Positions 8,246 through 37,327 of a stretch of DNA of 64,000 nucleotides are shown piece after piece; position 1 is the first letter of the stretch; every line of letters begins with the position of its first letter. The translations under genes and the position numbers were made by a program. The notes beneath the pieces are model-generated. The model was not told the origin of the DNA. It did not search any database and was given only the letters and a program-made list of their open reading frames with translations. The DNA is from Tribonema minus (taxonomy: Eukaryota; Sar; Xanthophyceae; Tribonematales; Tribonemataceae), in contig JAFCMP010000190.1 of assembly GCA_017506865.1 (NCBI GenBank), positions 930,001 to 994,000 of the forward strand, written 5' to 3'.

Positions 8246-8329
8246 ACAGGGAAGCTTCATGAAACCCCACAGCAGCAATGCAACTATCTGCATTCCATCA
8301 GCTGACCTGTGTGTTGCCGCTTGCAAGGC

Positions 8330-13104: not shown

Positions 13105-14047
13105 GGGTCCTTGCCAGCGCCAAGACTTAGTTTAGGGCGGTCACAACGGTTCTGCAAGAGGGAACAATCATACACAGGCAGGCGTCAGACAGTACGAAGG
13201 CAACTGCTGTTTTTGAGAACACACTCATGAGAGCATATATGAAAGCACATATGAAGGCACAAGCAAGTATGATCATTGATCTTGATACATATTATCTTGC
13301 AGCATGCAGCTGCTGCCCGTTGCGCATCGGGCATAAAGAATTGGCGCAGCACCGCCACTGGTGGTGTAATTAGTAGCTGGCATATGAGGCATCCCTCCTT
13401 GGTCGGAAGTCAAAAGGACAAATGGGGGATGAGCCGTGAGCAACAATGTTTACAGTAACTGCACCCTAGTAGCGTAGGTGCTTATACGAGTCTTGATGGT
13501 GATGGTGTCTTCACGACTAACACCATTGTGTGCAATGAAATCTGCCGTTTGATGAAGTGTTTGTAGTGTCGTTCGGGAGTCGAGGGACGGGGACAAGCCA
13601 GGCATGCAGGTGCAGGGTTAGCAGGAGGGGCTTTGGGGGTCACGAGCAGGCAGCGGTGGAGGACTCAGGCGATGGTGCCGGGTGAGAATCTGATTTAAAT
13701 TTTTACATATCCAAGTTGGTGATATATTTGGTGTTGCATAAGGTACAAGCCACCAGTATGGAGCTGCAATTCTTTGCAAAAGATTGTAATAACTTGAAGT
13801 AGCACCTGGCTGTTGCGTCTTTCGGCTATCTCGGGGAAGACGGTGAAAATGCACCATGGTGCAGGCAATGGCAACTTGGAATGCACATGCGGCTCGGAAA
13901 TGTAGATGTGAGAAGGACGCACATCTACCAGCTGTAAGGGGCTTGCATAGTCTTGCATCCATGCCAGCTTGTCGTCCACGCAGCAGATGGCTTTGATTGT
14001 AAGAGGATTGGCATTTTTGGCAGCAGGAACCACCACTTCAGTGGCCG
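13105..14047. other. mostly unassigned; coding-like minus stretch ends at the LTR insertion
   Basis: No recognised gene. On the minus strand 13695-14047 is open for about 117 codons (with segments VVVPAAKNANPLTIKAICC and LQLVDVRPSHIYISEP) and stops abruptly where the LTR begins at 14048. It could be an exon cut by the retroelement; I do not recognise it. Confidence 0.3.
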
Positions 14048-14329
14048 TGTAGTGAGGCAACCCTAGGTGGAGCAGTAGTTGAAGTAGGGCTTGCATTGCG
14101 AATGCCTTTTGTGCAGTAATCAGACACGACTTTAACCTTCAACATGGCACAGCTTCTTCTGCTTCTACCTGTTTAGCCACGCTTGCATATCAGGGTGATA
14201 TTGCACTTGGGGAGGGCGCTCCGGTCCACCTCCCACAACACCAGGCAGTGGGCATTTCCGGCTGTTTCAAGTCAAGGTTGAGACTGAGTCTCACACACTT
14301 TCACCCTCTGTGGTTGGCACACCACCACA
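14048..14329 (+). repeat. 5' LTR of LE0
   Basis: 282 bp, TGTAGTG...CACCACA. Same sequence, with few differences, as the LTRs ending at 17126 and those at 17151, 19853, 22555 and 23453 on the other strand. Confidence 0.85.
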
Positions 14330-14330
14330 A

Positions 14331-14347
14331 TGGCTGATCTCGGCAGG
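14331..14347 (+). other. primer-binding site for tRNA-Arg(CCG)
   Basis: TGGCTGATCTCGGCAGG lies one base after the 5' LTR. It is complementary to the 3' end of the tRNA-Arg(CCG) sequence at 23376-23451, CCA included; this copy has one extra T relative to the PBS at 19836-19851. Confidence 0.8.
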
Positions 14348-14753
14348 TGCTGACCTGTCCAGTACTATTTCGGATAGTGCTCCAACACACAGCTTTCGCT
14401 GTTTCCGTCGGCACCTCTGCTGCACGCAACCTGAGGTGGCTGGGGTTCAAACTTCTGCACCATTAGCTGTGCCGTCTACTGGCGTCCTTAAGGGGCCACT
14501 TACAGCACTCGGTGGATCCAGGGGCTTTAGAACCAGCCACACACGGAGTTCCGGTCAGCAGCAGCAGCTGTAAACGGCGACAGCAGAGTTTTCGGGAATT
14601 CTATAGCTGGGGGCGTGCTCGTCGTAAGGCGCCCTTCGGCTCTTCACTACTTAGCAGCAGCAGCAGCTGCTGCTTCAGCATACTGCCACCTTCCTGGCAG
14701 CACGTGCTCATCTACTATTCAGCAGCACCTTAACACCTTTTACTGGAAGCAAA

Positions 14754-16199
14754 ATGGTGGGGGGGAAACGTGCTGTTGCGAGTCGGGCTGAAGCGCTTAG
14801 CGTGTACACCCGGCTGCTCAAGAAGGGACGTTGGGGCTCAGCCTCGGAATGGTTTTACAGCACCGGAGACAGGGACGTGGCGGAAAAGCTTGGTGAGGTG
14901 CTCAGCGCAATGACCTATTTTGTCTCTGCGGAGGTCAAACTGCAGGAGGAGCGACGCCGGCTCAGCACGTGCCTTGCAGAAGCCACACAGGGAGTCGCTG
15001 AGGAGCAGCAGAGAGTCAGCATCCTGCAAGAGCGGCTACAGCAAAGCAAGAAGGCTGAGGCAGCAGCGCAGCGAGAGCTGGAGCGGCAATGCGCTGCTGA
15101 TTCAGCAGCGCTGTTGCAGCTGCGGAGTCGGGTGTCGGAGCTGGAGGAGGATGCTGCGAGAATGGCTACAGTGCTGGCGTCGGCGCGCGCAGCCGATGGC
15201 AACGCGGGCACCAACAGCTGCGCCAACAACAGCGGCGGCGTATGTGCCGCACGCTCAGCGCCGACGGAGGCGCTTCCAACATCGCAAGCATGCAGCAGTG
15301 GCGCGCTTGGCAGCAGCGGCACTGCAGTCGTGCTCTCAGCGCCGACAACGGCGGCGCATGCAGCTGTGCCTGCATGCGACATCGGCGGGCACAACAGCGG
15401 CGGCACCGCAGCTGCGCTTTTGGCCCCGGCGACAGCGGCGCTTTCACCGCTGCGCGCACGCAGTGGCGCGTGTGACAGTGGCGACACTGCGGCCCCGCTC
15501 CCAGCGCGCGGCAGTGGCGGCGGCGACAGTAGCGGCGGCGCGCGCGGCGGCGGCAGCGGCGGCGGCTGCAGCGGCGCACGCGACGGCGGTAGCGGCGGAG
15601 CACGGGGCGGCAGCGGCGGCGCGCGAGGCGGCGCGCTTGGCAGCAGCGGCGGCGCGCGCGGCGACGGCAGCAGCGGCGGCAGCAGCGGTGCACGCCGCGG
15701 CGGCAGCGGCGGCGCGCGAGGCGGTGGCAGCGGCGCACGCCATCAAGGCGGCGGCGGCGGCGCACGCCACCAGGGTGGCGGCACTGGTGCGGCGAGCTCG
15801 GCGACGGCGACGGTGCCGATGCAACAGCGCGCCGGCATCAGCGCTGCGCGGCGCAGCATGCGCGCCGCAGGCAGGAGCTTGGGACGGTTGCTCTCGCGGC
15901 GGCAGCAGAAGCGGCGGGAGTACTGGTCGGCGCATACGCCTGAGGAGCAGCAGCGCCTCCGCGACTGGCAGGCGCGGCATAAGGCGCTGCACAGGCGGCA
16001 TGCGAGCAAGGAGAGGCGTGGCGATGGCGCGCAGCCGCCAGATGCAGCAGCAGCGGGGAGGCGCGGCGGTGCTTACACTAGCACAGCATTGTCTCCCACC
16101 AGCAATCAGGCTGTGCTTAGCGCATATTGCGCTGACATTTGTGAGACACAGACGGCAGCAGCTCTTTTATGCGCCATGTGTCTTACCAGTGCATCTTGA
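14754..16199 (+). CDS. gag-like coiled-coil protein of LE0 (481 aa)
   Basis: Only gene of the element, starting MVGGKRAVASRAEALSVY about 400 bp after the PBS. Residues ~1-50 form a compact segment with an aromatic motif (SASEWFYSTGD). Residues ~55-140 form a heptad-like charged coiled coil (KLQEERRRL; LQERLQQSKKAEAAAQREL). Residues ~150-345 are Ala/Ser/Gly low complexity with GGARGGGSGG-type repeats. The C-terminal ~100 residues are basic (LSRRQQKRREYW) with a few cysteines. Coiled coil plus a basic tail fits a particle-forming, RNA-binding Gag; that role is inferred from position and architecture, since no known Gag domain is recognisable. The copies in LE1 and LE2 are 31 residues shorter in the Gly/Ala region. 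Confidence 0.7.
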   Translation: MVGGKRAVASRAEALSVYTRLLKKGRWGSASEWFYSTGDRDVAEKLGEVLSAMTYFVSAEVKLQEERRRLSTCLAEATQGVAEEQQRVSILQERLQQSKKAEAAAQRELERQCAADSAALLQLRSRVSELEEDAARMATVLASARAADGNAGTNSCANNSGGVCAARSAPTEALPTSQACSSGALGSSGTAVVLSAPTTAAHAAVPACDIGGHNSGGTAAALLAPATAALSPLRARSGACDSGDTAAPLPARGSGGGDSSGGARGGGSGGGCSGARDGGSGGARGGSGGARGGALGSSGGARGDGSSGGSSGARRGGSGGARGGGSGARHQGGGGGARHQGGGTGAASSATATVPMQQRAGISAARRSMRAAGRSLGRLLSRRQQKRREYWSAHTPEEQQRLRDWQARHKALHRRHASKERRGDGAQPPDAAAAGRRGGAYTSTALSPTSNQAVLSAYCADICETQTAAALLCAMCLTSAS

Positions 16200-16296
16200 G
16201 CGGTTTGGCTCATGGGGGCGCTTGTTTGCAGGTTCACTGTTAAGCCTGTACGTTTAGACAGCACACCGCTTACATACCATCAGCAGTGTAGTGTCT

Positions 16297-16305
16297 GGGG
16301 GCGAT
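16297..16305 (+). other. internal polypurine-like tract of LE0
   Basis: GGGGGCGAT followed by TGTCGTACAGG. It is the same nine bases that precede the 3' LTR at 16836-16844, so it looks like a second plus-strand priming site. The abnormal copy LE3 is joined to its tRNA sequence exactly at this TGTCG. Confidence 0.5.
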
Positions 16306-16835
16306 TGTCGTACAGGTCGAAATGCGTTGCATTGACCACCTGGGCGCACAAACCCACCCGCCCACCCTTTAGTTTTGTTTCAGCTGTACATGCGCACTTC
16401 TTTTGCGTGTGTTACACAAACGCTGGGGGGGGGATAAGTGCGCAGTGCCAACATGTCGGGGGCGTACATACTACAGTAGTTGTAGAATGGTGGTGCGCTT
16501 GCTTGCGTTGGTTGCGCAGTGCCAACATGTCGGGGGCGCATATAGCAGCAGAGCCAGTTGCTTGCTCGTTAGTTTGTCTGTTACAGCGTTAGGTCATGTG
16601 TTGTTTTGCAACAGTGTAGTTGCCACTCCAGCCAGACGCGCCACAGTCTTTCTGAGACTTGTTGGTGGCGGAGGGTTGCTGGTATATGCCATATGCCCGT
16701 GTTATTTGAGAGTTTCGGCGGTCGTGGATGACAGCCGTGCTTGCATTGCATTTTGTAGCAGTATTGCATGTGTAGTATCGAGGGCGCCTCACATGAGTGC
16801 ATGGCTTTCGACTTGTGGAGTGGAAGAGCCATGCA

Positions 16836-16844
16836 GGGGGCGAT
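16836..16844 (+). other. 3' polypurine tract of LE0
   Basis: GGGGGCGAT immediately upstream of the 3' LTR start TGTAGTG, where plus-strand synthesis of an LTR retrotransposon is primed. Confidence 0.65.
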
Positions 16845-17126
16845 TGTAGTGAGGCAACCCTAGGTGGAGCAGTAGTTGAAGTAGGGCTTGCATTGCGAAT
16901 GCCTTTTGTGCAGTAATCAGACACGACTTTAACCTTCAACATGGCACAGCTTCTTCTGCTTCTACCTGTTTAGCCACGCTTGCATATCAGGGTGATATTG
17001 CACTTGGGGAGGGCGCTCCGGTCCACCTCCCACGGCACCAGGCAGTGGGCATTTCCGGCTGTTTCAAGTCAAGGTTGAGACTGGGTCTCACACACTTTCA
17101 CCCTCTGTGGTTGGCACACCACTACA
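16845..17126 (+). repeat. 3' LTR of LE0
   Basis: 282 bp, TGTAGTG...CACTACA; perfect seven-base inverted ends. It is followed by AT and then a 21-nt piece of tRNA-Arg sequence. Confidence 0.85.
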
Positions 17127-17150
17127 ATCGTGTCCTGCCGAGATCGCCAT
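17127..17150. other. head-to-head LTR junction holding a 21-nt tRNA-Arg 3' fragment
   Basis: Between the LE0 3' LTR (+) and the LE1 3' LTR (-) lie AT, the 21 bases CGTGTCCTGCCGAG plus ATCGCCA, and one T. These equal tRNA-Arg positions 56-76 including CCA, longer than the 16-nt complementarity of an ordinary PBS in this family. Confidence 0.75.
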
Positions 17151-17432
17151 TGTGGTGGTGTGCCAACCACAGAGGGTGAAAGTGTGTGAGACCCAGTCTC
17201 AACCTTGACTTGAAACAGCCGGAAATGCCCACTGCCTGGTGCCGTGGGAGGTGGACCGGAGCGCCCTCCCCTAGTGCAATATCACCCTGATATGCAAGCG
17301 TGGCTAAACAGGTAGAAGCAGAAGAAGCTGTGCCATGTTGAAGGTTAAAGTCGTGTCTGATTACTGCACAAAAGGCATTCGCAATGCAAGCCCTACTTCA
17401 ACTACTGCTCCACCTAGGGTTGCCTCACTACA
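17151..17432 (-). repeat. 3' LTR of LE1
   Basis: 282 bp; its end faces the 3' LTR of LE0 across the tRNA-fragment junction. Confidence 0.85.
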
Positions 17433-18076
17433 ATCGCCCCCTGCATGGCTCTTCCACTCCACAAGTCGAAAGCCATGCACTCATGTGAGGCGCCCTCGAT
17501 ACTACACATGCAATACTGCTACAAAATGCAATGCAAGCACGGCTGTCATCCACGACCGCCGAAACTCTCAAATAACACGGGCATATGGCATATACCAGCA
17601 ACCCTCCGCCACCAAGTCGTCTCAGAAAGACTGTGGCGCGTCTGGCTGGAGTGGCAACTACACTGTTGCAAAACAACACATGACCTAACGCTGTAACAGA
17701 CAAACTAACGAGCAAGCAACTGGCTCTGCTGCTATATGCGCCCCCGACATGTTGGCACTGCGCAACCAACGCAAGCAAGCGCACCACCATTCTACAACTA
17801 CTGTAGTATGTACGCCCCCGACATGTTGGCACTGCGCACTTATCCCCCCCCAGCGTTTGTGTAACACACGCAAAAGAAGTGCGCATGTACAGCTGAAACA
17901 AAACTAAAGGGTGGGCGGGTGGGTTTGTGCGCCCAGGTGGTCAATGCAACGCATTTCGACCTGTACGACAATCGCCCCCAGACACTACACTGCTGATGGT
18001 ATGTAAGCGGTGTGGTGTCTAAACATACAGGCTCAACAGTGAACCTGCAAACAAGCGCCCCCATGAGCCAAACCGC

Positions 18077-19429
18077 TCAAGATGCACTGGTAATACACAT
18101 GGCGCATAAAAGAGCTGCTGCCGTCTGTGTCTCACAAATGTCAGCGCAATATGCGCTAAGCACAGCCCGGTTGCTGGTGGGAGACAATGCTGTGCTAATG
18201 TCAGCACCGCCGCGCCTCCCCGCTGTTGCTGAGTCTGGCGGCTGCGCGCCATCGCCACGCCTCTCCTTGCTCGCATGCCGCCTGTGCAGCGCCTTATGCC
18301 GCGCCTGCCAGTCGCGGAGGCGCTGCTGCTCCTCAGGCGTATGCGCCGACCAGTACTCCCGCCGCTTCTGCTGCCGCCGCGAGAGCGGCCGTCCCCAGCT
18401 GCTGCCTGCGGCGCGCATGCTGCGCCGCGCAGCGCTGATGCCGGCGCGCTGTTGCATCGGCACCGTCGCCGTCGCCGAGCTCGCCGCACCAGTGCCGCCA
18501 CCCTGGTGGCGTGCGCCGCCGCCGCCGCCTTGATGGCGTGCGCCGCTGCCACCGCCTCGCGCGCCGCCGCTGCCGCCCCGCGCCCCGCCGCTACCGCCGT
18601 CGCGTGCGCCGCTGCAGCCGCCGCCGCTGCCGCCGCCGCGCGCGCCGCCGCTACTGTCGCCGCCGCCACTGCCGCGCGCTGGGAGCGGGGCCGCAGTGTC
18701 GCCACTGTCACACGCGCCACTGCGTGCGCGCAGCGGTGAAAGCGCCGCTGTCGCCGGGGCCAAAAGCGCAGCTGCGGTGCCGCCGCTGTTGTGCCCGCCG
18801 ATGTCGCATGCAGGCACAGCTGCATGCGCCGCCGTTGTCGGCGCTGAGAGCACGACTGCAGTGCCGCTGCTGCCAAGCGCGCCACTGCTGCATGCTTGCG
18901 ATGTTGGAAGCGCCTCCGTCGGCGCTGAGTGTGCGGCACATACGCCGCCGCTGTTGTTGGCGCAGCTGTTGGTGCCCGCGTTGCCATCGGCTGCGCGCGC
19001 CGACGCCAGCACTGTAGCCATTCTCGCAGCATCCTCCTCCAGCTCCGACACCCGACTCCGCAGCTGCAACAGCGCTGCTGAATCAGCAGCGCATTGCCGC
19101 TCCAGCTCTCGCTGCGCTGCTGCCTCAGCCTTCTTGCTTTGCTGTAGCCGTTCTTGCAGGATGCTGACTCTCTGCTGCTCCTCAGCGACTCCCTGTGTGG
19201 CTTCTGCAAGGCACGTGCTGAGCCGGCGTCGCTCCTCCTGCAGTTTGACCTCCGCAGAGACAAAATAGGTCATTGCGCTGAGCACCTCACCAAGCTTTTC
19301 CGCCACGTCCCTGTCTCCGGTGCTGTAAAACCATTCCGAGGCTGAGCCCCAACGTCCCTTCTTGAGCAGCCGGGTGTACACGCTAAGCGCTTCAGCCCGA
19401 CTCGCAACAGCACGTTTCCCCCCCACCAT
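18077..19429 (-). CDS. gag-like coiled-coil protein of LE1 (450 aa)
   Basis: Same protein as in LE0 but without a 31-residue Gly/Ala/Ser stretch in the low-complexity middle. Coiled coil at ~55-140 and basic C-terminus are intact, with no stop or frameshift. It differs from the LE2 copy at only a few residues (for example CAAHSAP against CAARSAP), so LE1 and LE2 diverged recently. Confidence 0.7.
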   Translation of the reverse strand: MVGGKRAVASRAEALSVYTRLLKKGRWGSASEWFYSTGDRDVAEKLGEVLSAMTYFVSAEVKLQEERRRLSTCLAEATQGVAEEQQRVSILQERLQQSKKAEAAAQRELERQCAADSAALLQLRSRVSELEEDAARMATVLASARAADGNAGTNSCANNSGGVCAAHSAPTEALPTSQACSSGALGSSGTAVVLSAPTTAAHAAVPACDIGGHNSGGTAAALLAPATAALSPLRARSGACDSGDTAAPLPARGSGGGDSSGGARGGGSGGGCSGARDGGSGGARGGSGGARGGGSGARHQGGGGGARHQGGGTGAASSATATVPMQQRAGISAARRSMRAAGSSWGRPLSRRQQKRREYWSAHTPEEQQRLRDWQARHKALHRRHASKERRGDGAQPPDSATAGRRGGADISTALSPTSNRAVLSAYCADICETQTAAALLCAMCITSAS

Positions 19430-19835
19430 TTTGCTTCCAGTAAAAGGTGTTAAGGTGCTGCTGAATAGTAGATGAGCACGTGCTGCCAGGAAGGTGGCAG
19501 TATGCTGAAGCAGCAGCTGCTGCTGCTGCTAAGTAGTGAAGAGCCGAAGGGCGCCTTACGACGAGCACGCCCCCAGCTATAGAAATCCCGAAAACTCTGC
19601 TGTCGCCGTTTACAGCTGCTGCTGCTGACCGGAACTCCGTGTGTGGCTGGTTCTAAAGCCCCTGGATCCACCGAGTGCTGTAAGTGGCCCCTTAAGGACG
19701 CCAGTAGACGGCACAGCTAATGGTGCAGAAGTTTGAACCCCAGCCACCTCAGGTTGCGTGCAGCAGAGGTGCCGACGGAAACAGCGAAAGCTGTGTGTTG
19801 GAGCACTATCCGATATAGTACTGGACAGGTCAGCA

Positions 19836-19851
19836 CCTGCCGAGATCGCCA
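19836..19851 (-). other. PBS of LE1, tRNA-Arg(CCG)
   Basis: On the minus strand TGGCGATCTCGGCAGG, one base after the LTR: 16 bases complementary to the tRNA-Arg 3' end with G at position 73 and CCA. The next internal bases no longer match the tRNA. Confidence 0.85.
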
Positions 19852-19852
19852 T

Positions 19853-20134
19853 TGTGGTGGTGTGCCAACCACAGAGGGTGAAAGTGTGTGTGACTCAGCC
19901 TCAACCTTGACTTGAAACAGCCGGAAATGCCCACTGCCTGGTGCCGTGGGAGGTGGACCGGAGCGCCCTCCCCAAGTGCAATATCACCCTGATATGCAAG
20001 CGTGGCTAAACAGGTAGAAGCAGAAGAAGCTGTGCCATGTTGAAGGTTAAAGTCGTGTCTGATCACTGCACAAAAGGCATTCGCAATGCAAGCCCTACTT
20101 CAACTACTGCTCCACCTAGGGTCGCCTCACTACA
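19853..20134 (-). repeat. LTR shared by LE1 and LE2
   Basis: 282-bp LTR acting as 5' LTR of LE1 and 3' LTR of LE2. Confidence 0.85.
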
Positions 20135-20777
20135 ATCGCCCCCTGCATGGCTCTTCCACTCCACAAGTCGGAAGCCATGCACTCATGTGAGGCGCCCTAG
20201 ACACTACACATGCAATACTGCTACAAGATGCAATGCAAGCACGGCTGTCATCCATGACCGCCGAAACTCTCAAATAACACGGGCATATGGCATATACCAG
20301 CAACCCTCTGCCACCAACAAGTCTCAGCAAGACTGTGGCGCGTCTGGCTGGAGTGGCAACTACATTGTTGCAAAACAACACATGACCTAACGCTGCAACA
20401 GACAAACTAACGAGCAAGCAACTGGCTCTGCTGCTATATGCGCCCCCGACATGTTGGCACTGCGCAACCAACGCAAGCAAGCGCACCACCATTCTACAAC
20501 TACTGTAGTATGTACGCCCCCGACATGTTGGCACTGCGCACTTATCCCCCCCCCGCGTTTGTGTAACACACGCAAAAGAAGTGCGCATGTACAGCTGAAA
20601 CAAAACTAAGGGTGGGCGGGTGGGTTTGTGCGCCCAGGTGGTCAATGCAACGCATTTCGACCTGTACGACAATCGCCCCCAGACACTACACTGCTGATGG
20701 TATGTAAGCGGTGTGGTGTCTAAACATACAGGCTCAACAGTGAACCTGCAAACAAGCGCCCCCATGAGCCAAACCGC

Positions 20778-22130
20778 TCAAGATGCACTGGTAATACACA
20801 TGGCGCATAAAAGAGCTGCTGCCGTCTGTGTCTCACAAATGTCAGCGCAATATGCGCTAAGCACAGCCCGGTTGCTGGTGGGAGACAATGCTGTGCTAAT
20901 GTCAGCACCGCCGCGCCTCCCCGCTGTTGCTGAGTCTGGCGGCTGCGCGCCATCGCCACGCCTCTCCTTGCTCGCATGCCGCCTGTGCAGCGCCTTATGC
21001 CGCGCCTGCCAGTCGCGGAGGCGCTGCTGCTCCTCAGGCGTATGCGCCGACCAGTACTCCCGCCGCTTCTGCTGCCGCCGCGAGAGCGGCCGTCCCCAGC
21101 TGCTGCCTGCGGCGCGCATGCTGCGCCGCGCAGCGCTGATGCCGGCGCGCTGTTGCATCGGCACCGTCGCCGTCGCCGAGCTCGCCGCACCAGTGCCGCC
21201 ACCCTGGTGGCGTGCGCCGCCGCCGCCGCCTTGATGGCGTGCGCCGCTGCCACCGCCTCGCGCGCCGCCGCTGCCGCCCCGCGCGCCGCCGCTACCGCCG
21301 TCGCGTGCGCCGCTGCAGCCGCCGCCGCTGCCGCCGCCGCGCGCGCCGCCGCTACTGTCGCCGCCGCCACTGCCGCGCGCTGGGAGCGGGGCCGCAGTGT
21401 CGCCACTGTCACACGCGCCACTGCGTGCGCGCAGCGGTGAAAGCGCCGCTGTCGCCGGGGCCAAAAGCGCAGCTGCGGTGCCGCCGCTGTTGTGCCCGCC
21501 GATGTCGCATGCAGGCACAGCTGCATGCGCCGCCGTTGTCGGCGCTGAGAGCACGACTGCAGTGCCGCTGCTGCCAAGCGCGCCACTGCTGCATGCTTGC
21601 GATGTTGGAAGCGCCTCCGTCGGCGCTGAGCGTGCGGCACATACGCCGCCGCTGTTGTTGGCGCAGCTGTTGGTGCCCGCGTTGCCATCGGCTGCGCGCG
21701 CCGACGCCAGCACTGTAGCCATTCTCGCAGCATCCTCCTCCAGCTCCGACACCCGACTCCGCAGCTGCAACAGCGCTGCTGAATCAGCAGCGCATTGCCG
21801 CTCCAGCTCTCGCTGCGCTGCTGCCTCAGCCTTCTTGCTTTGCTGTAGCCGTTCTTGCAGGATGCTGACTCTCTGCTGCTCCTCAGCGACTCCCTGTGTG
21901 GCTTCTGCAAGGCACGTGCTGAGCCGGCGTCGCTCCTCCTGCAGTTTGACCTCCGCAGAGACAAAATAGGTCATTGCGCTGAGCACCTCACCAAGCTTTT
22001 CCGCCACGTCCCTGTCTCCGGTGCTGTAAAACCATTCCGAGGCTGAGCCCCAACGTCCCTTCTTGAGCAGCCGGGTGTACACGCTAAGCGCTTCAGCCCG
22101 ACTCGCAACAGCACGTTTCCCCCCCACCAT
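20778..22130 (-). CDS. gag-like coiled-coil protein of LE2 (450 aa)
   Basis: Intact, almost identical to the LE1 protein. It starts MVGGKRAVASR about 400 bp after the PBS and ends in a Cys-containing tail (YCADICETQ). The antisense strand and the third frame are also open for long stretches because of GCC/GGC repeats; those are not genes. Confidence 0.7.
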   Translation of the reverse strand: MVGGKRAVASRAEALSVYTRLLKKGRWGSASEWFYSTGDRDVAEKLGEVLSAMTYFVSAEVKLQEERRRLSTCLAEATQGVAEEQQRVSILQERLQQSKKAEAAAQRELERQCAADSAALLQLRSRVSELEEDAARMATVLASARAADGNAGTNSCANNSGGVCAARSAPTEALPTSQACSSGALGSSGTAVVLSAPTTAAHAAVPACDIGGHNSGGTAAALLAPATAALSPLRARSGACDSGDTAAPLPARGSGGGDSSGGARGGGSGGGCSGARDGGSGGARGGSGGARGGGSGARHQGGGGGARHQGGGTGAASSATATVPMQQRAGISAARRSMRAAGSSWGRPLSRRQQKRREYWSAHTPEEQQRLRDWQARHKALHRRHASKERRGDGAQPPDSATAGRRGGADISTALSPTSNRAVLSAYCADICETQTAAALLCAMCITSAS

Positions 22131-22536
22131 TTTGCTTCCAGTAAAAGGTGTTAAGGTGCTGCTGAATAGTAGATGAGCACGTGCTGCCAGGAAGGTGGCA
22201 GTATGCTGAAGCAGCAGCTGCTGCTGCTGCTAAGTAGTGAAGAGCCGAAGGGCGCCTTACGACGAGCACGCCCCCAGCTATAGAAATCCCGAAAACTCTG
22301 CTGTCGCCGTTTACAGCTGCTGCTGCTGACCGGAACTCCGTGTGTGGCTGGTTCTAAAGCCCCTGGATCCACCGAGTGCTGTAAGTGGCCCCTTAAGGAC
22401 GCCAGTAGACGGCACAGCTAATGGTGCAGAAGTTTGAACCCCAGCCACCTCAGGTAGCGTGCAGCAGAGGTGCCGACGGAAACAGCGAAAGCTGTGTGTT
22501 GGAGCACTATCCGAAATAGTACTGGACAGGTCAGCA

Positions 22537-22553
22537 CCTGCCGAGATCAGCCA
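22537..22553 (-). other. PBS of LE2, tRNA-Arg(CCG)
   Basis: Minus strand TGGCTGATCTCGGCAGG, one base after the LTR starting at 22555; it carries the same extra T as LE0. Confidence 0.8.
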
Positions 22554-22554
22554 T

Positions 22555-22836
22555 TGTAGTGGTGTGCCAACCACAGAGGGTGAAAGTGTGTGAGACCCAG
22601 TCTCAACCTTGACTTGAAACAGCCGGAAATGCCCACTGCCTGGTGCCGTGGGAGGTGGACCGGAGCGCCCTCCCCAAGTGCAATATCACCCTGATATGCA
22701 AGCGTGGCTAAACAGGTAGAAGCAGAAGAAGCTGTGCCATGTTGAAGGTTAAAGTCGTGTCTGATTACTGCACAAAAGGCATTCGCAATGCAAGCCCTAC
22801 TTCAACTACTGCTCCACCTAGGGTTGCCTCACTACA
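22555..22836 (-). repeat. LTR shared by LE2 and LE3
   Basis: 282-bp LTR; 5' LTR of LE2 and 3' LTR of LE3. Confidence 0.85.
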
Positions 22837-23375
22837 ATCGCCCCCTGCATGGCTCTTCCACTCCACAAGTCGAAAGCCATGCACTCATGTGAGGCGCCCT
22901 CGATACTACACATGCAATACTGCTACAAAATGCAATGCAAGCACGGCTGTCATCCACGACCGCCGAAACTCTCAAATAACACGGGCATATGGCATATACC
23001 AGCAACCCTCCGCCTCCAACAAGTCTCAGAAAGACTGTGGCGCGTCTGGCTGGAGTGGCAACTACATTGTTGCAAAACAACACATGACCTAACGCTGTAA
23101 CAGACAAACTAACGAGCAAGCAACTGGCTCTGCTGCTATATGCGCCCCCGACATGTTGGCACTGCGCAACCAACGCAAGCAAGCGCACCACCATTCTACA
23201 ACTACTGTAGTATGTACGCCCCCGACATGTTGGCACTGCGCACTTATCCCCCCCCCAGCGTTTGTGTAACACACGCAAAAGAAGTGCGCATGTACAGCTG
23301 AAACAAAACTAAAGGGTGGGCGGGTGGGTTTGTGCGCCCAGGTGGTCAATGCAACGCATTTCGACCTGTACGACA

Positions 23376-23451
23376 ATCTCGTGGCTCAATGGATAGAGTT
23401 TCAGTCTCCGAAGCTGAAGGCTGCAGGTTCGTGTCCTGCCGAGATCAGCCA
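23376..23451 (+). tRNA. tRNA-Arg(CCG)-derived sequence, probably a reverse-transcribed primer rather than a gene
   Basis: Folds as a cloverleaf on +: acceptor ATCTCG/CGAGAT (the first base is lost and replaced by the LTR-side A at 23375), D arm GCTC-AATGGATA-GAGT, anticodon arm TCAGT-CTCCGAA-GCTGA with anticodon CCG, variable loop AGGCT, T arm GCAGG-TTCGTGT-CCTGC, then CCA at 23449-23451. One extra base sits before CCA (AGCCA). Nuclear tRNA genes do not encode CCA, and both sides are LTR-element sequence, so this reads as a copy of the primer tRNA. Position 58, nearly always A, is T. Confidence 0.75.
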
Positions 23452-23452
23452 T

Positions 23453-23734
23453 TGTAGTGGTGTGCCAACCACAGAGGGTGAAAGTGTGTGAGACCCAGTC
23501 TCAACCTTGACTTGAAACAGCCGGAAATGCCCACTGCCTGGTGCCGTGGGAGGTGGACCGGAGCGCCCTCCCCAAGTGCAATATCACCCTGATATGCAAG
23601 CGTGGCTAAACAGGTAGAAGCAGAAGAAGCTGTGCCATGTTGAAGGTTAAAGTCGTGTCTGATTACTGCACAAAAGGCATTCGCAATGCAAGCCCTACTT
23701 CAACTACTGCTCCACCTAGGGTTGCCTCACTACA
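23453..23734 (-). repeat. LTR shared by LE3 and the truncated LE4
   Basis: 282-bp LTR (CACTACA end at 23734 on +). It is 5' LTR of LE3 and the only LTR of the truncated copy to its right. Confidence 0.85.
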
Positions 23735-24156
23735 ATCGCCCCCTGCATGGCTCTTCCACTCCACAAGTCGAAAGCCATGCACTCATGTGAGGCGCCCTCG
23801 ATACTACACATGCAATACTGCTACAAAATGCAATGCAAGCACGGCTGTCATCCACGACCGCCGAAACTCTCAAATAACACGGGCATATGGCATATACCAG
23901 CAACCCTCCGCCACCAACAAGTGTCAGAAAGACTGTGGCGCGTCTGGCTGGAGTGGCAACTACATTGTTGCAAAACAACACATGACCTAACGCTGTAACA
24001 GACAAACTAACGAGCAAGCAACTGGCTCTGCTGCTATATGCGCCCCCGACATGTTGGCACTGCGCAACCAACGCAAGCAAGCGCACCACCATTCTACAAC
24101 TACTGTAGTATGTACGCCCCCGACATGTTGGCACTGCGCACTTATCCCCCCCCCCC
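23735..24156 (-). mobile_element. truncated internal remnant (copy LE4)
   Basis: 422 bp of the internal 3' region, including both copies of the TGCGCAGTGCCAACATGTCG direct repeat seen in every full copy. The match to other copies ends inside a C-run at 24145-24157, where the gypsy-type element begins. Confidence 0.8.
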
Positions 24157-24186
24157 AAAATAGGCAGGGCATGGCGCACATGTGTC

Positions 24187-25110
24187 ATGGTGCAGGATTT
24201 TGTGGGCACTGACACTCATGTGCTTGACAGGAATGTGTTTGACCCCTTGTTGCTTGTGCGGGGCGATGACACGGGAGAAGACTTTTATTTGCCTGCGTCG
24301 TGCACCAGATTGCAAGTTGCTAGACCCTACTGGGTGCAGCCGTTGGCCCCTGCGGAGCCGCTGGCTGACGCTGCCAACTGGGCGCGCGTAGAGGGCCCAT
24401 TGGCTGCTGACTGGCTTGATCCTGACAAGGGCCCTGTACTGACAGTGCCTCCCTCGGTGCCAATCGCAGGCCTTGAGTTCACTATGCCAAGAGATGCCAT
24501 AACTGACCGCTGTGTAGACCGCACTCTTGCTCAGCTCGTACACCAAATGAGGGGTAACCTCAATGACCCCATAGCTGTGAACGAGCTGCATACGTGGCGC
24601 GAGCAGGCTCACCAGTTGCAGCTGCAGCAACAGGGTTTGCCGCTGCAGCAGCACCAGCAGCAGCCGCAGCAGCAGCCGCAGCAGCAGCAACAGCAGCAGC
24701 CGCAGCAGCAGCAGCAGCATCAGCAGCAGCCGCCGCCGCCGCAGCAGCAGCAGCAGGCTGAGCCTCAGGGTCAATGGCAGTTGTCAGAGCGGTGGCAACA
24801 ACACCGGCAGCAGCAGACGGAGGACGCACAGCCGCCGCCGCAGCAGCAGCAGCAGCAGCTGGCGCCATCGCCGCCGCCGCTGCAGCAGCTGCCAGTGGCG
24901 CCGTCGCCGCCGCAGCAGCAGCAGCAGCAACCGCCGCCGCCGCCTCCTCCGCCGCAGCAGCTGACGGAGAATGACGACCCGCAAGTGATCACCAGGCAAG
25001 AGGCAGCCCAGCAACGCACGGCTGCCTTGCGCGCGATGGCTCCTCGGGCGCTCAAAGGTGTGTCACATGAAACGCTCTATTTTTTGGATGACCCCCGGAG
25101 GCAGGTTTAG
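24187..25110 (+). CDS. Gln/Pro-rich N-terminal protein of the gypsy-type element
   Basis: 307 aa, ATG at 24187 (MVQDFVGTDTHV). The first ~140 residues are an ordinary mixed sequence; ~145-280 is poly-Gln and poly-Pro from CAG and CCG repeats; the end (MAPRALKGVSHETLYFLDD) is mixed again. It stops with TAG at 25108-25110 and overlaps the main polyprotein frame, which is open from 25092, in the -1 frame. It is probably the N-terminus of Gag, joined by -1 frameshifting or separated by an indel. No domain recognised. Confidence 0.6.
   Translation: MVQDFVGTDTHVLDRNVFDPLLLVRGDDTGEDFYLPASCTRLQVARPYWVQPLAPAEPLADAANWARVEGPLAADWLDPDKGPVLTVPPSVPIAGLEFTMPRDAITDRCVDRTLAQLVHQMRGNLNDPIAVNELHTWREQAHQLQLQQQGLPLQQHQQQPQQQPQQQQQQQPQQQQQHQQQPPPPQQQQQAEPQGQWQLSERWQQHRQQQTEDAQPPPQQQQQQLAPSPPPLQQLPVAPSPPQQQQQQPPPPPPPPQQLTENDDPQVITRQEAAQQRTAALRAMAPRALKGVSHETLYFLDDPRRQV
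24613..24966 (+). repeat. CAG/CCG simple-repeat tract
   Basis: Interrupted CAG and CCG triplet runs inside the N-terminal gypsy frame, coding for Gln and Pro. They also open the other frames and the antisense strand, giving poly-Ala, poly-Ser, poly-Leu and poly-Gly artefacts. Confidence 0.9.
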
Positions 25111-28100
25111 AGTACCGAGGGGTGGACAACAAGGCCATCAGCCATGAGGTCATTACGTGCATGATGCAGGAGTGGTTGGACTCGCTTGCAGCGCGTGTGT
25201 CGTTTGAAGGGGTGCAGTCGATCCCCGATCCCAACTCGGACCTGCGCACTTGTCCGTCATATGTTGCTTTGATGCTGCAATACTGCTTGTCCGCCGAGCT
25301 GCGTAGGAGCATTAAGGCGTTCCTGCACGAACATAGGGGCGCTAATGGCGACCTGTCAGGCAGGCAAATCAGTGCGTTGCATGCTCACCTCGACCGCGAG
25401 TATAGTGAGTCAATGCAGCGTAGCAAGGCAGACACAAGGTTGGAGCAGCTGCGCCTGGAGCCGGGAGTGAGTATCCAGGTATTTTTATTGGACTTTGAGA
25501 AAGTGCTGCGATACACATTGCACGGATTGGAGTTGGGAGAGAAGGTGTTCAGAGACAGGTTTGTCAGAAGGCTCATTGACACTCTGGCAAGATCCAAAGA
25601 TGTGAAGGCCCGAGTTGAAAAGTTCTTGGAGGCACTGGTAGAGTTCAGGGTGGTGCTCGAGCGCCAAGGGACGGATCAAGTGGACATGGCGTCGGTAAGG
25701 CTGAAACTGCAGCAGGCAGAGAGTGTAGTGGCTGCAACGAAGGGCATGTCAGTGCGCGCATACTTGGCGGCAGAGGTGAGTAAGAAGTCTGAGAAGCGGG
25801 GGGGCTCGACATATGCATTTAGTGGTGGCGGGTCAGAATCTGAGTCGGAAAACTCTGAGGGCGGCGCTTCTGGGGCTGACGTTCTTGCCACGCAGGGCGG
25901 CAGCGGCGCTGTGCCTAACACCCGGGCTACTGACACTAACGCTGAAACTCCGTGGAATGCAGCGCTGGACAGGTTCAGCTCCCATCTTCAACAGCATGCC
26001 AGTGACATGAACCAGCGTTTTGACTCACTTATCCGCGCAATGAGTCAACGTCACGGTGCTCCTCTGCAACCCGCTCCTCACAGGCAGCTATACTACCCTG
26101 CTGGCAACCGCCAGGGCCTGCCCAATTACGGCAGGCAGGGCTGGGGCGCCGCGCCCAACATCGGGGGCAACATCAACTCCAGGCCAAACGGGGGTTTGAT
26201 CTCCAACACCGGGGGGGGGGCTCGTGTCGCTAACAACTTCCCCCTTGATCCCTCCAGTCTCTCCCCTGAGTTGGTGCAGGCTGTGCTGGCAATTGTACAC
26301 GGCGAGAGGCCAGCAGTAGGCCCCACTGCGCCCACGTGGTCCACTGCGTTTGGCGTGGGGGCAGACAACGAGGCAGAGTACTTCTTCTCGGCGCGCACCT
26401 ACTTCGCGTGGGATCCCTCGGCAGGCCGGGTGTGTCTGAGCTGCGACCCCGACAAGTTCGCTGAGTGCTGCTGCTTCATGGCAGATGATGAGGTAGCAGA
26501 GGTGAGTAGTCTGGTCTGCGTGGCAGGTGCTGATGCTGGTGGCCAAATTGGCAGGATGGCCCCAGTGGTGCTCATGGTAGAGGCGCAGATTCACAATGTC
26601 ATGCCTGCAGTGGTTTATCTGGATTCGTGCGCAGGCTGCGATGTGATGCAGTTCAGGGCATACTGCCTTCTGTTGCGTAAGCTGAGAGACAGGGCAGAGA
26701 CGGCGCAGCAGGCAGTGCGTTTGGAGCAATCCCAGCGCCAGCCCACATTTAAGGCGATTCGTGGGGTTGGCAGGCACCTGGTAGCAGTGATGTTTATGGT
26801 GACTGTGCAGGTGGAGATTGCGGGCGTCTCAGCTCAAGTTGACTTTCATGTGAGCAACCAAATCGACCCTCAGTTCCTGCTCAGCTACAGCACCATTGCG
26901 CGTATGCGGTTGGACATGCTCACGAGTCGCTCGCCTGCTATGGTACAGCATCCTGACTTCCCTAACAAAGCAGTCAAGTCGCTGACCCCTGATGAGGTAG
27001 CAGCCAAGCGTGACCAATGGCGTAGCGCGCGCAATGCTGGCAACCAACAGGGAGTACAGTCGGCCGAAGTTGCAGTTGACCTAGGCTCGGTGTTGAAGTT
27101 TGAGTATGGGTCGCTGCCCGCGGAGCTGTTGGAGGAGCGTGCGGAGAATGGTGAGCCTGGCCCGAAGTTTGTGTTGAGCAAGGGCACGCAGCGAATGCAA
27201 CCACCTATTGACCTTGACAGTGTTGATGATGAGAGGGTAATCAGGGTGGATGATCTGCCGAAAGCGGGATGGGAGGTAGACGTGCAGCACAGACGCTGGC
27301 ACAACGGTGAGTTGAGTGAGGTAATGTCGGTCAGCTCAGAGTCGATTGACAGTGCCTCAGAGGACGGAGAGCCGGCTGACAGGTATGTGGAGGAGACAGA
27401 CTGGACAAAGATGTCAGGTGAAGATTCAGCAGACGACAGTGACATGGAGCTCGATGCTGCGCGCACTCAGTCTTGTGATGAGACAGTTGAAGTTGAAGTT
27501 GACGTGGCGCTTGCTGAGCTTGATGCAGATAGGCGCTCAGGGTGCTACGACAAAAAGGGGGGGTCAACTTGGGCAGTGCAGGATTGCCACCCAGACAGGT
27601 GGGCAGCAATTTCACCAGTGGAGCGCGGTGAGTACCCAAACGTTGAGCACATGACCGTGTCAAGCCTCACAGTGGTAGACTTGGGGGCGGGCATTGGCAG
27701 CTCCGTGAAAGGTGCGATTATGGGAGGGGCGCAGGTAGCATTGGCAGTGGAGATAGCTGATACATATGCTGCCATCTTTCGCGCATCTCACCCCAACGTG
27801 CCCTTGCTGGTGGCAGACTACACATCTGATGAGGTGTGGGACAGGATTATGGAGATAGACCCTGACCTAGTAACTGCCAGCACCCGTTGTGAAGGCGCCA
27901 GCAGACAGCGCTTCAAGCCAGCTGGGGAGATCAGAGTTGATGCAGAAGCAAATCAGGTAACCCCAAAGTTGGTGGACAAAGCCATTCAGCGAGGCGTGAA
28001 ATGCCTGATGATTGAGAATGTGCCAGAGATCAGCGAGACAATCAGCGGGCAGTTGGCGATTGCGCATGCGCACCAGGCAGGATACCATGTGTTGTCATTT

Positions 28101-31100
28101 GAGCTCTCAGGTGCAGACCTAGGGTTCCCTAACCTGCGCAATCGCGTGTTCTTCCTCATCACCAGGGGAGACCAAACTGTTGTAGACACCTTGCGTACAG
28201 TGGCAGGCAGGATTGAGGAGGCCAAGTATGGCGGTCACAAGCAGGAGAGAGTGCAGATTAACCCTGGTGAAATGTGGGGCGTGTCTAACCCTGTGTATGT
28301 GCTGCCGCCGCGCAATGCCACAGCTCGCTGGACACATGACGCCAAGCGCAGTGCTCCCACTCTCGTTTCACGCCACTTCCATGTGTTTCGCCAGCCTGCA
28401 GACGACCACATGCGTCGAGGTGACATTGAGTTCTCGCTCTCACAGCGGTATGTCCCCTCGCAGGCTGACGTGATGCGAGCCAACGGCTTGTGGTGGATCA
28501 AGGTGCCGCCGGGGGTCAGTCAGACTGCCCTGGCAAAAGGTTGTGGCCAGATCGTGCTGGCACCAGTCATGTCATTTATTGTGCGCATCTTGCGCACTGA
28601 GCCTGTGTTGTTTGACACGCAGCATCGCCTGCACCCAGCGGCGTCGCGTCTCATTGAGGATGGCATTTTTGTGCAGACACTTGGCCCGTATGCACTGCCT
28701 GAGGACCACCCTCAGGGTGGCACTCTCGTGGGGCCTGTACTCATTGCCTCCTCTCTGCCTAGCACGCCATTTTTGCGCAAGCTACGGCACATGCAGGGCT
28801 CAGTCAAGAGCGCTGGCAACAACAACCGCGAGCCAGGACCACAGCCGACCTCTACCTCAACTTCAACTTCAAGCACCAGCACCACGGCAAGAAGCACCGA
28901 CGCGGACAGCGGTGAAGACGCAAGCAACGGCGACGGCGACGCCAGCGGTGAAGACGCTGAAGGCCATCGCAGCGGCGGGGCGCGCACGCCAGGTAAGATG
29001 ACAATGTTGGAAGCATACAACCAAGTGATGGATGAGCTTGATGAGCGCTTGGGCAAGAATCACATGTCAGAAGACCCAGGCGTAGCCGCTACCGCCAATG
29101 CTAAATTGCCAGGGTGGGACGATATTCTGCTAGTTGCTGAGCAAGGCGCATCGGCGCACAAGCAAGCTACAGTACGCGTTGCCAAACAATACCCAGTAAC
29201 TGAACCTACAACAGCAGGAGTTGCAGTGTTGGTGACGTGGACAGGGTGGGTGCCGCCGGGCAACTATGTGCTAGAAGGGGTAGTAGACCCAAAGGGGCAC
29301 TGGGCAGTGCGGCGCCAGCGAGTGTTGGTGGAAGAAGGTAATCAAACCAGCACTATAAACATCACTATTGTGAAGCGTACCGGTAAGCTGAAACCGGGTG
29401 TTAAAGTGGGGCATCTACACTTGTTGGATGAGCGGATGTGGAAGAAGCAGGTACACCAACATGAAGTAGGCATTACACGCAGTTTGCTGAAGCTGTCCGC
29501 GGAGTCGTTGAGACAGTCTGATACACCTGCGCGTGACAGTAAACTGGCAGCGGTCAAAGCCAGGATAGCGAGTGTTGAACGCAATGATCGTTTGGCCACA
29601 GCCTGCTTCATGGTAGCGATGGGGTGTGTCACGCCTGCGGAAGCACGTGCACAGTCTGAAGGGGCCATAAATGGAACAGCTGCGGAGAATTTGTTTGCGC
29701 AGAGTAGTGCGCATGGTTGGGGGCGCCAAGTTGAAGTTGAGGGGATGAGCACTGCTGATGACAGAACAATCCCTGTAGCAGGCACGGTACCGGGGGTACG
29801 ACCGCCTGCAGAGCCCCCACCAGCGAAAACTTCTTGCACTGCAGTCTCAGAAACTCACGCTGGAACTAAACAGGAAGCAAAGATTGATGTAGAATCGCAA
29901 CCTGGTGTTGACACTGGCGCAGGTACAGAACCTGTCAATGAGTGTACGGACGAAGAAGCAGTGCAGCGAGCGCGGGAGTTGGAGTGGTTTGCCGCGTTCA
30001 AAATAGGGGAATTGGATCACCTTACAAACAAGCAGAAAGAAATTTTAACGGATTTGCTGCGTAGCATGGCCAGGAAAGGTATCTTCTCATTTGATGGCAG
30101 GCCCGGAAAGACGTCGTTGGTCCGTCACCATATTGATGTAGGGGATGCTAGACCAGTACGTGCAAGATTGCGCAAGTACAGCTTGAAGGAGCTTGAAGTG
30201 CTGTGGAAGGAGATAGATTTTTTGATTAAGAAAGGTGTGATTGAACCGTCAAATTCGCCTTGGAACTCCCCTTTGATGATAATACCCAACCCGGATGGGG
30301 GACTGCGAGTAGTGCAAGACTTGAGGGCGGTTAATCAAGCGGTCAAAGAAAAGGGCAGCGGCCAGGATGGTTTTCCGTTGCCACGCATTGATGAGGTGCA
30401 TTCAGCGTTGAGTGGCTCTGAGTGGTTCAGCTCTATGGACGCGGTAGCTGGATTCTGGCATGTTGAACTTGATAGAGAATCCAGGCCGCTAACAGCATTT
30501 CAGACCAAATGGGGGTGCTACCAATGGAAGGTTGGACCCATGGGGCTCATGAATATGCCATCTACTTTTCAGCGTCTGATGCAGTTGGCCATGGGACATG
30601 ATGCGTTGTGGGTGTATGCATTAGTGTATGTGGACGATATTTTGGTTTTCAGCAAGACTTTCGAGGAACACATGAAGCATTTGAAGGTAGTGCTGAGCCG
30701 CTTGCTCTCAGTTGGTATCAAGCTGAAGCCATCAAAGTGTCATTTCGCAATGAAAGAGGTCAAGTTTCTGGGCCACATAGTGGATGCGCGAGGTAAACGT
30801 GTAGACCCATCAAAAGTGGCAGCCATCGACAAAATACCACTTCCCACTGACCTCCATGATGTGCGTTCCTTTTTGTGTATGGCAGCATATTATAGGCAGT
30901 ACATTTCCAATTTTTCTACAATCACGGAGCCCCTGGTAAACCTCACGCGCAAAGGTGTGCCGTTTGAGCTTTCTGATGATTGTGTAGCAACTTGGCAGGT
31001 TTTGAAGGAGGCGCTAAAAACGTCCCCTGTGCTAGCTCATCCAGACTTGAAAGGGATCCTTAATGGTACAGTCAAGCTGGTATTGCAAACAGATGCTTCA

Positions 31101-34976: not shown

Positions 34977-35222
34977 AATCAGACACGACTTTAACCTTCA
35001 ACATGGCACAGCTTCTTCTGCTTCTACCTGTTTAGCCACGCTTGCATATCAGGGTGATATTGCACTTGGGGAGGGCGCTCCGGTCCACCTCCCACGGCAC
35101 CAGGCAGTGGGCATTTCCGGCTGTTTCAAGTCAAGGTTGAGACTGAGTCTCACACACTTTCACCCTCTGTGGTTGGCACACCACCACAATGGCGATCTCG
35201 GCACGACCACCTGGGCGCACAG
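34970..35222 (+). mobile_element. LE-family fragment (LE5): LTR 3' part, PBS, short internal piece
   Basis: LTR sequence with an internal 22-bp deletion (GTAGGGCTT joined to AGTAATCAGAC) running to CACCACA at 35188. Then a PBS (TGGCGATCTCGGCA, 35190-35203), then directly ACCACCTGGGCGCACA, which in full copies lies ~1.9 kb further on in the 3' internal region. After that the match ends. Confidence 0.75.
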
Positions 35223-36792: not shown

Positions 36793-37327
36793 GTTCAGGG
36801 CTGTCTCAATCTGTGTTTGACCGCACTGAAGATTGCTCAACTCTGCCTAATTGTGTCTGAGAACCTAGTTGACTGAACCAGACTCAAAGCATGTCATGTA
36901 ACATGCACATTAGCAGGCCGGGTGCTGCCATAGCCCGTCTCCTGCAGAGTTATGTGTTAGCTTTTCGTGAACAGCAAGGTCTCGGAGACATGCGTACACT
37001 TGCGGCTGCCGGGAGGGCGCTCCATAGCACACCAATGAAAATGGCTGCAATGCTTGCAGCATAAGCGAGCACTTGCAACTCGCTGACAGCACATAGTGAG
37101 GCAGCAGCGTACCTGGCCCACTTCTTTCTTTCTTCATCACCGCAACACTGGGTGCGACGCCCAGCAGCAGCTGTGATAGCTAGGATCGCACAGAAACGTG
37201 TTCACCTGTACAAATACGGTGTGTTTGCGGCGTATTTGGTCATAGGAATACATGTCAAACCGAAGTTGTATATTATGTCCTGGACCGCATGGGGGTTGAG
37301 CACACGATAATCGGGCGATAACTAAAC

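Follow-up and report, generated by a model that had tools for sequence, protein, structure and literature searches.

The composite insertion and its autonomous element

The window, i.e. the whole 64,000-nucleotide stretch of Tribonema minus DNA that was analysed, contains a composite insertion at 14048..35221. Its left end is an LTR (TGTAGTG), its right end is a short predicted hairpin, here designated H, which ends in CGCACA, and it is flanked by the 4-bp repeat GCCG at 14044..14047 and 35222..35225. A matching 4-mer at approximately this spacing is found for 0.54% of random position pairs. In order, the composite comprises a family A copy that meets, at a tail-to-tail joint, three LTR copies in inverted orientation accompanied by two internal regions; behind these come a tRNA joint, a truncated LTR and, last, an autonomous element. 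The family A copies in it are non-autonomous.

On the plus strand, the first copy begins with the left LTR at 14048..14330 (TGTAGTGAGG...CACCACA-A) and a primer-binding site (PBS) at 14331..14347, which is an extra-T variant (TGGCTGATCTCGGCAGG). It continues through the internal purine tract GGGGGCGAT followed by H (16297..16350, with H at 16306-16350) to an LTR at 16845..17127, the right end of which lies at the tail-to-tail joint. Here, a read-through copy of 22 nt of tRNA on the minus strand (17128..17149), which reaches position 55 and carries T58, joins the right ends of two LTRs. The features that follow are all on the minus strand: an LTR copy at 17150..17970 with H at 17926-17970; a PBS without the extra T together with an LTR copy with H at 20627-20671 (19838..20671); a PBS of the extra-T variant in an ordinary LTR-PBS-internal junction (22537..22553); an LTR copy at 22554..23375, whose start is fused to a second stretch of tRNA sequence; and, upstream of the latter, a 5'-truncated LTR copy (positions 120-824) at 23452..24154. 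The LTR copies in this array are 97.9-100% identical.

The autonomous element is encoded on the plus strand. It comprises a Q/P-rich ORF in the gag position with no Pfam match (24187..25110), a pol ORF of 2811 aa (25122..33557), the purine tract GGGGGCGTA (34868..34876), and the 3' LTR (34877..35189, TGTCGTAAAGC...CACCACA-A). This LTR, 14 nt of tRNA complement (TGGCGATCTCGGCA; 18 if a single mismatch is tolerated), and a truncated H with CGCACA as its end make up the right end of the composite (35190..35221 for the latter two, plus strand). The Pfam matches in pol are RVT_1 (1721-1887), RT_RNaseH (1985-2087), H2C2 (2291-2351), and rve, the integrase core (2371-2465), in the RT - RNase H - integrase order of Ty3/gypsy elements, and a C5 cytosine methyltransferase domain (PF00145, E 1e-7) lies upstream of the RT. 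In a search with the RT, 434 matches were obtained, and the closest of the 120 listed is 70% identical. LTRs of the form TG...CA, a tRNA PBS, and a purine tract are present, the 5' LTR and PBS being taken from the copy in contig C516 and the 3' LTR from the window. The short target-site duplication of Ty3/gypsy elements is seen in families A, B, and C, at 4 bp. A DIRS/PAT-like retrotransposon was considered and rejected, because an integrase core is present and there is no tyrosine recombinase among the six Pfam families matched.

The KnitGypsy-Dnmt3 element of Klebsormidium nitens likewise carries a C5 cytosine methyltransferase domain in its Gypsy pol ORF, and an unusual repeat structure has also been remarked for it (PMC5890265). 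The likeness is drawn here by domain content only, and tRNA copies are unmentioned in the available part of its description.

Elsewhere in the window are a tandem array with a period of ~139 bp (8329-10261) and two 2.5-kb direct repeats (37257-39801 and 44252-46802), which are 97.7% identical and overlap ORFs with RT domains.

The copy of the primer tRNA and its gene

The tRNA sequence at 23377..23451 (minus strand) copies the mature primer tRNA-Arg(CCG) from the CCA as far as position 3; it measures 74 nt, not counting one extra T, and has T58 and T20a in the tRNA sense. On this strand, the LTR end ...CACTACA-A (to 23452) is followed by TGG at 23451, the tRNA complement down to 23377, a single T at 23376 that separates the copy from TGTCG, and TGTCGTACAGG from 23375. 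Both ARAGORN and the Rfam tRNA model (58.1 bits; gathering score 29) call a tRNA at 23375-23447. The earlier note had described a copy of the primer tRNA-Arg(CCG), CCA included, between LTR segments, and this is borne out by the sequence. It had also let the copy run to position 2, which is incorrect: position 3, plus one T, is the actual end, and position 2 of the gene is G, a mismatch.

TGTCGTACAGG at 23375 is the start of the LTR copy, the first 45 nt of which are H (23331-23375, TGTCGTACAGG...CGCACA). The T at 23376 is the same base that precedes H behind the purine tract GGGGGCGAT. At other copies TGTCGTACAGG does stand behind this tract, in agreement with the earlier description of the sequence after the tRNA as that which follows an internal purine tract.

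The copy has one extra base (TGGCTGATC versus TGGCGATC), a variant also present in the element's own 5' PBS at 22553. Because the extra T and the CACTACA variant both match the neighbour at 22554, the copy at 23451 is taken to be a hybrid of PBS and tRNA copy, which would have arisen by a template switch within the PBS or by conversion.

In an assembly search, the 79-bp junction recurs with 100% identity only in C461. This contig (13.4 kb) is 99.8% identical to 16683-30104 of the window, with 6 mismatches and 18 gap openings; it is a redundant contig and represents no second event. A chance origin of the tRNA sequence is excluded, because the 79-bp match has an E value of 1e-33 and there are 10 junctions of like kind. 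Since GCCG flanks the whole composite, the junction at 23377-23451 was probably made before integration.

When the 158-Mb assembly was searched with the tRNA-Arg(CCG) gene at C90:439155, this was the one full-length gene found. Apart from it, the long matches consist of the retro-copies and a tRNA-Arg(TCG) gene, and all remaining matches are partial. The C90 gene has A58 (GTTCGAGTCC) and C at 20a, and has no encoded CCA, G73 being followed by ATCTG. Because CCA is present in the copies yet is not encoded beside the gene, the copy is derived from mature tRNA. T58 had been regarded from the outset as a change from A, with T58 in genuine genes named beforehand as the refuting observation. The sole full-length gene has A58, and no tRNA-Arg(CCG) gene with T58 was found in the 158-Mb assembly.

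Upstream of the C90 gene lies a row of repeats, most of them ~143 bp apart (L181, C90:431700-432420, and L012). Each repeat holds the 5' half of tRNA-Arg(CCG), and those that were read have C at 20a.

Recurrence of the copies and the bases at positions 58 and 20a

The initial search gave 11 matches, namely the junction itself, C461, the gene, and eight more LTR-tRNA copies, two of which are mutual duplicates. A pattern scan with the complement of positions 72-55 gave 16 sites with at most one mismatch, including the C90 gene and a tRNA-Arg(TCG) gene. Altogether there are ten distinct junctions that copy the primer past position 58, two of them within one composite and one (C516) at a 5' PBS, so that possibly not all are independent. 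The copies extend to position 3 (window 23451), 9 or 10 (C64), 10 (C102 and C314), 10 or 11 (C521, with one base shared with H), 14 (C115), 15 (C539), 23 (C507), 55 (window 17149), and 56 (C516). The search for further LTR-tRNA junctions that had been proposed was therefore successful, and those found have different 5' stops and lie beside different LTR families. The C516 copy may be inherited from an earlier cycle.

The base at position 58 (tRNA sense) is T in seven of the ten junctions and A in the other three (C115, C521, and C516); this count leaves out the ambiguous 20-nt case in C264. The remaining compared sites show only 4 mismatches in 548, three of them in C507 (Fisher p 1e-11 versus position 58). 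Such a concentration of changes is consistent with misreading at a predicted m1A58. In an RNA-seq study, both arrest and misincorporation were found at m1A (PMC4787781). The efficient misincorporation of A reported in the available part of that study is for m1A followed by U, whereas here G follows m1A58, so that the context differs.

All seven copies long enough to include position 20a have T there, against C in the gene and in the half-gene repeats that were read. To judge from these sequences, either the primer may not be exactly the assembled gene, or 20a may be misread too; the constancy of T20a could be due to misreading of a further modified base, to RNA editing, or to a missing gene.

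In C102, a family A copy, the 5' PBS is TGGCTGATC, with the extra T, and the 3' copy is TGGCGATC. Because the extra T is present only in the 5' PBS, the 3' copy was templated by the tRNA and not by the PBS; and because the 5' PBS keeps the extra T, it was not rewritten by the tRNA copy.

Two other loci may be mentioned here. C521:157604-165577 and C521:173037-180999 are inverted copies of ~8 kb, 99.4% identical, with the same read-through junction. At the 5' PBS of L042 (C516), the complement is extended to 21 nt and has A58, which resembles the sequence of lentiviral primer over-extension.

Right ends and the length of the tRNA copy

The tRNA-Arg PBS is common to four LTR families, designated A, B, C, and D (D from one locus), in which many right ends depart from a plain LTR end and run from the LTR through tRNA complement and H (33-59 nt) into the flank. 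The tRNA copies start from the CCA at the end of U5 and extend in the primer orientation. For this analysis 53 PBS-like sites were examined (41 exact and 12 with one mismatch). Duplicates were removed before counting, namely C461 (2 sites), C476 (2), one of two in C521, and one of two in C539 (439 and 444 kb). The four junctions copied past position 58 that are not followed by H (C115, C314, window 17149 with 22 nt, and C516 with 21 nt) stand outside the count.

The H-ended right ends so obtained number 31 (16 in family A, 9 in B, 5 in C, and 1 in D). Nine of them have a tRNA copy of 1-5 nt, one of 9 nt, fifteen of 14-19 nt, and six of 54-74 nt, where the class of 1-9 nt represents a sample (19 of 81 family B ends, 18 family A ends without ATGGC, and a few more) and the sequence read for the C163 end (4 nt) begins inside the junction. 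None of the 31 H-ended copies is of 20-53 nt; copies of 20-22 nt do occur, but only at ends without H. The 17-19 nt class fits a plus-strand strong stop before a predicted m1A58 (18 nt), and the short class (1-9 nt) fits joining after removal of the primer. The long class (54-74 nt) is the product of read-through. Among the eight copies longer than 50 nt, two of which are not H-ended, those in C102, C314, C64, and C521 stop at about position 10, just before G9. In eukaryotic tRNA, m1G9 is a base that blocks RT.

The filler of 1-2 bases between the tRNA copy and H is often A or AT, as behind the purine tract; T, TT, TA, GA, and longer fillers are also seen. In many cases, not in all, the filler matches the bases between GGGGGCG and TGTCG at the internal copies of H.

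The tRNA-H end is not the sole route, and ordinary LTR right ends are common. The 19 sampled family B ends comprise 5 that are H-ended, 1 with a T run, 9 plain ends, and 4 ordinary 5' PBS sites. Family A has 132 ends with at most one mismatch, and 87 matches once AATGGC is added; the 18 sampled ends without ATGGC comprise 14 plain ends, 3 that are H-ended, and 1 that is unclear. The plain ends (14/18 in family A, 9/19 in family B) run from CACA straight into the flank, and the duplication was checked for C314 only.

Some joints are of other kinds. In L160 (C158), L159 (C163), and L162 (C4:530 kb), the LTR end is separated by runs of A or T from what follows it, which is an inverted LTR, a piece of H, or another element. 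Tail-to-tail joints of LTRs through ~18-22 nt of tRNA complement are present in L048, where different LTR families are linked, L060, L079, L081, and window 17128-17149. In L055, an LTR of family B is joined through 18 nt to the start of an LTR of family C.

The hairpin H and the flanks of the insertions

H is 33-59 nt long, starts with TGTCGTACAGG, and ends with CCTGGRCGCACA (...CGCACA), and some of its copies are truncated or altered. In single RNA-energy folds, made without a shuffled control, its five types share an outer stem and differ in their loops. Wherever H is long enough to tell, its type tracks the LTR family. H is also present internally, behind the purine tract; this was read directly from the sequence for families A and B, and for C it was deduced from position. 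The combination of GGGGGCG, 0-3 bases, and TGTCGTACAGG occurs 95 times, and the full H pattern 315 times; both have 0 occurrences in the control.

Of the 40 H loci sampled, 25 prove to be small inverted-repeat elements, bounded left and right by H-type ends. These H-H mini-elements (L086-L125) are 57-508 bp long, some with scrambled pieces of H in between, and 16 of the 25 have identical 4-bp flanks. Instead of TGTNR, their ends read TGTGC, and CCGG, CCGT, and ACGG are all absent from the 16 identical 4-mers.

It might be supposed that H is an ordinary second LTR truncated by chance. This was rejected, because three unrelated flanks start right after CGCACA and the 4-bp flanks mark that point as the end. 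H was likewise not assigned to a known RNA family: in the Rfam search of 16000-25000 of the window, only tRNA passes the gathering score, MIR4371 at the palindrome falling below it.

Identical 4-mers flank 16 of the 19 LTR-tRNA-H insertions for which both flanks are available (chance ~3e-36 at 1/256 each), and these 4-mers differ among the insertions. The three insertions without an identical 4-bp repeat are C479, C50, and C301:915 kb, and the latter two have altered H ends. C314 has an ordinary right end, with ~13 kb between the LTR ends and GCAC on both sides. Behind its 5' LTR stand 67 nt of tRNA complement, then AATGGCTGATC and then the internal region (LTR-tRNA-PBS-internal). Judging from this order, the second strand transfer in C314 was apparently accomplished by joining of an over-extended plus strand to the PBS end.

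Proposed mechanism and alternative explanations

The observations are, with high probability, to be explained by read-through of the primer past m1A58, joining to another cDNA, and integration with a 4-bp duplication. The RT would read the primer while it is still linked to the minus-strand DNA; plus-strand synthesis would proceed through U5 into the tRNA, place A opposite m1A58, and stop near the 5' end of the tRNA. With the primer not removed, the over-long right end would be linked, through end joining or a template switch, to a further cDNA at its left end, which would start immediately behind the purine tract (A(T)-TGTCG, hairpin H). Integration of the linked cDNAs would then follow, with a 4-bp target duplication, for which the element's integrase may use the H end CGCACA. 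H would either exist as a short DNA in its own right, a possibility to which the H-H mini-elements point, or be excised from a longer molecule formed by joining. The account rests on what can be read in the sequence: the tRNA can be identified and its CCA is included, the gene has A58, copies recur with different stops, T58 is found in 7/10, and H ends and 4-bp flanks are present. From these we infer the m1A58 modification and the order of the steps. The proposal already made in the earlier note, i.e. read-through of the primer followed by joining to a second plus-strand segment, is supported and is the best reading.

For the window, the composite is likely to be the integration of a single cDNA concatemer of 21 kb, the tandem part of which may have been reshaped by recombination after integration. 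Alternatively, the array could be the product of unequal recombination or gene conversion after integration, with only the tRNA-H joint being original. Such an origin, which we hold possible but doubtful, would agree with the identity of 97.9-100% among the LTR copies and with the CACTACA variant and extra-T PBS common to 22554 and 23452; however, a tail-to-tail joint with its own tRNA copy and the GCCG repeat around 21 kb are not products of tandem-array recombination.

The other alternatives concern the origin of the tRNA sequence and of H. That ARAGORN and Rfam call a tRNA at the site is what would be expected if the sequence were simply a nuclear tRNA gene or pseudogene and an LTR element had landed in it or next to it. 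This is extremely improbable, because the sequence includes CCA, abuts the U5 end exactly, and has the primer orientation; moreover, like copies elsewhere are cut at different 5' points beside different LTR families, and the real gene sits elsewhere (C90), without CCA. It is also very unlikely that one master element gained a tRNA copy once and that later transposition spread it. T20a is indeed common to all seven copies that reach 20a, and C461, C476, the two C521 loci, and the two C539 loci are duplicates, but the end points vary (positions 3, 9/10, 14, 15, 23, 55, and 56), as do the base at position 58, the LTR families with their different H types, and the flanking 4-mers. The same T20a, against C in the assembled gene, may be taken to indicate that the assembly lacks a variant tRNA-Arg(CCG) gene carrying T58 and T20a, in which case there would be no misreading of m1A. 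We regard this as unlikely: three copies have A58, two of them together with T20a; a tRNA with T58 would be without m1A58, which leaves the 17-19 nt mode unaccounted for; and no such variant was found in the assembly. Slightly less unlikely, though still improbable, is an origin of H from an unrelated cut-and-paste DNA transposon of the Ginger type, with a Gypsy-type integrase, whose transposase made the insertions. Ginger DNA transposons have a Gypsy-like integrase, TIRs, and 4-bp duplications, according to the available part of their description (PMC2836005), and the H mini-elements of 57-508 bp share the TIRs and, in 16/25, the identical 4-bp flanks. In contrast, Ginger1 targets CCGG or CCGT and its ends fit TGTNR (PMC2836005), while the mini-elements do neither, with ends of TGTGC and 0/16 duplications of CCGG, CCGT, or ACGG; H was for this reason rejected as a Ginger TIR. 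H also follows the LTR family in its type, and lies behind the purine tract inside A and B, and by position in C.

The preferred explanation, read-through of the primer and joining to another cDNA, may be extended to the LTR families as a whole, with a confidence that is evenly balanced. The families would complete many of their right ends with a tRNA copy and a family-specific H as a miniature integrase end, each insertion would preserve the exact 3' end of the strong-stop DNA, and the same integrase would move H-bounded scraps. The copies would then be a footprint of the modifications of the tRNA, with the stop before m1A58, the misreading at 58, the ends at about position 10 before G9 (possibly m1G9), and the constant C-to-T at 20a.

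Relation to known systems and significance

In cloned circular DNA of MMLV, a tRNA sequence was found between the LTRs (Colicelli and Goff 1986, via PMC12220202). As in Tribonema minus, a reverse-transcribed tRNA lies between two LTRs, but in MMLV it is a tRNA-Gly, interpreted as a spurious primer, in an unintegrated circle, whereas in Tribonema minus it is the tRNA matching the PBS, in many integrated copies with varied ends, and with a hairpin in addition. In HIV-1, with tRNA-Lys3 as the primer, the RT copies 18 nt and stops at m1A58, sometimes continuing, and A58 has an influence on this (PMC13191261, PMC1785368). Such read-through at position 58 has been well studied in HIV. Minor products there end at position 55, 54, or 37, and it is unmodified tRNA that yields full copies; here the copies run to positions 23-3 and are inherited.

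Ty1 and Ty3 are likewise LTR retrotransposons, in which the 5' PBS keeps its own variant and dead-end plus-strand strong-stop DNA occurs (PMC5371799). In the Ty3 model (PMC5371799), 12 nt of the tRNA are copied and not passed on, whereas here the copied tRNA is kept at integrated ends. The Helenus TRIMs are, similarly, non-autonomous LTR elements associated with tRNA sequence (PMC10886601). They have a tRNA-like Pol III promoter inside the LTR, whereas here it is the complement that is found, outside the LTR, with CCA, and of variable length. The tRNA sequence lies between the LTR end and H, and not, as in Helenus, inside both LTRs.

Among the matches listed from the open-licence literature, there is no report of inherited read-through ends of LTR retrotransposons, nor of hairpin ends like H. 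The recurrent inherited copies, the modification footprint, and the hairpin ends appear to be new; tRNA between LTRs was already known.

Work on the removal and copying of primer tRNA has relied on unintegrated products and engineered tRNAs, in retroviruses and in yeast Ty elements. With the lengths of the copied tRNA frozen in a genome, the spectrum of stops and the misreading of m1A58 can be counted from the genome sequence alone, and the same search is applicable to any genome with a known primer tRNA. If H is indeed an integrase end, the LTR families of Tribonema minus would have a new way to finish and integrate a cDNA from which the primer has not been removed.
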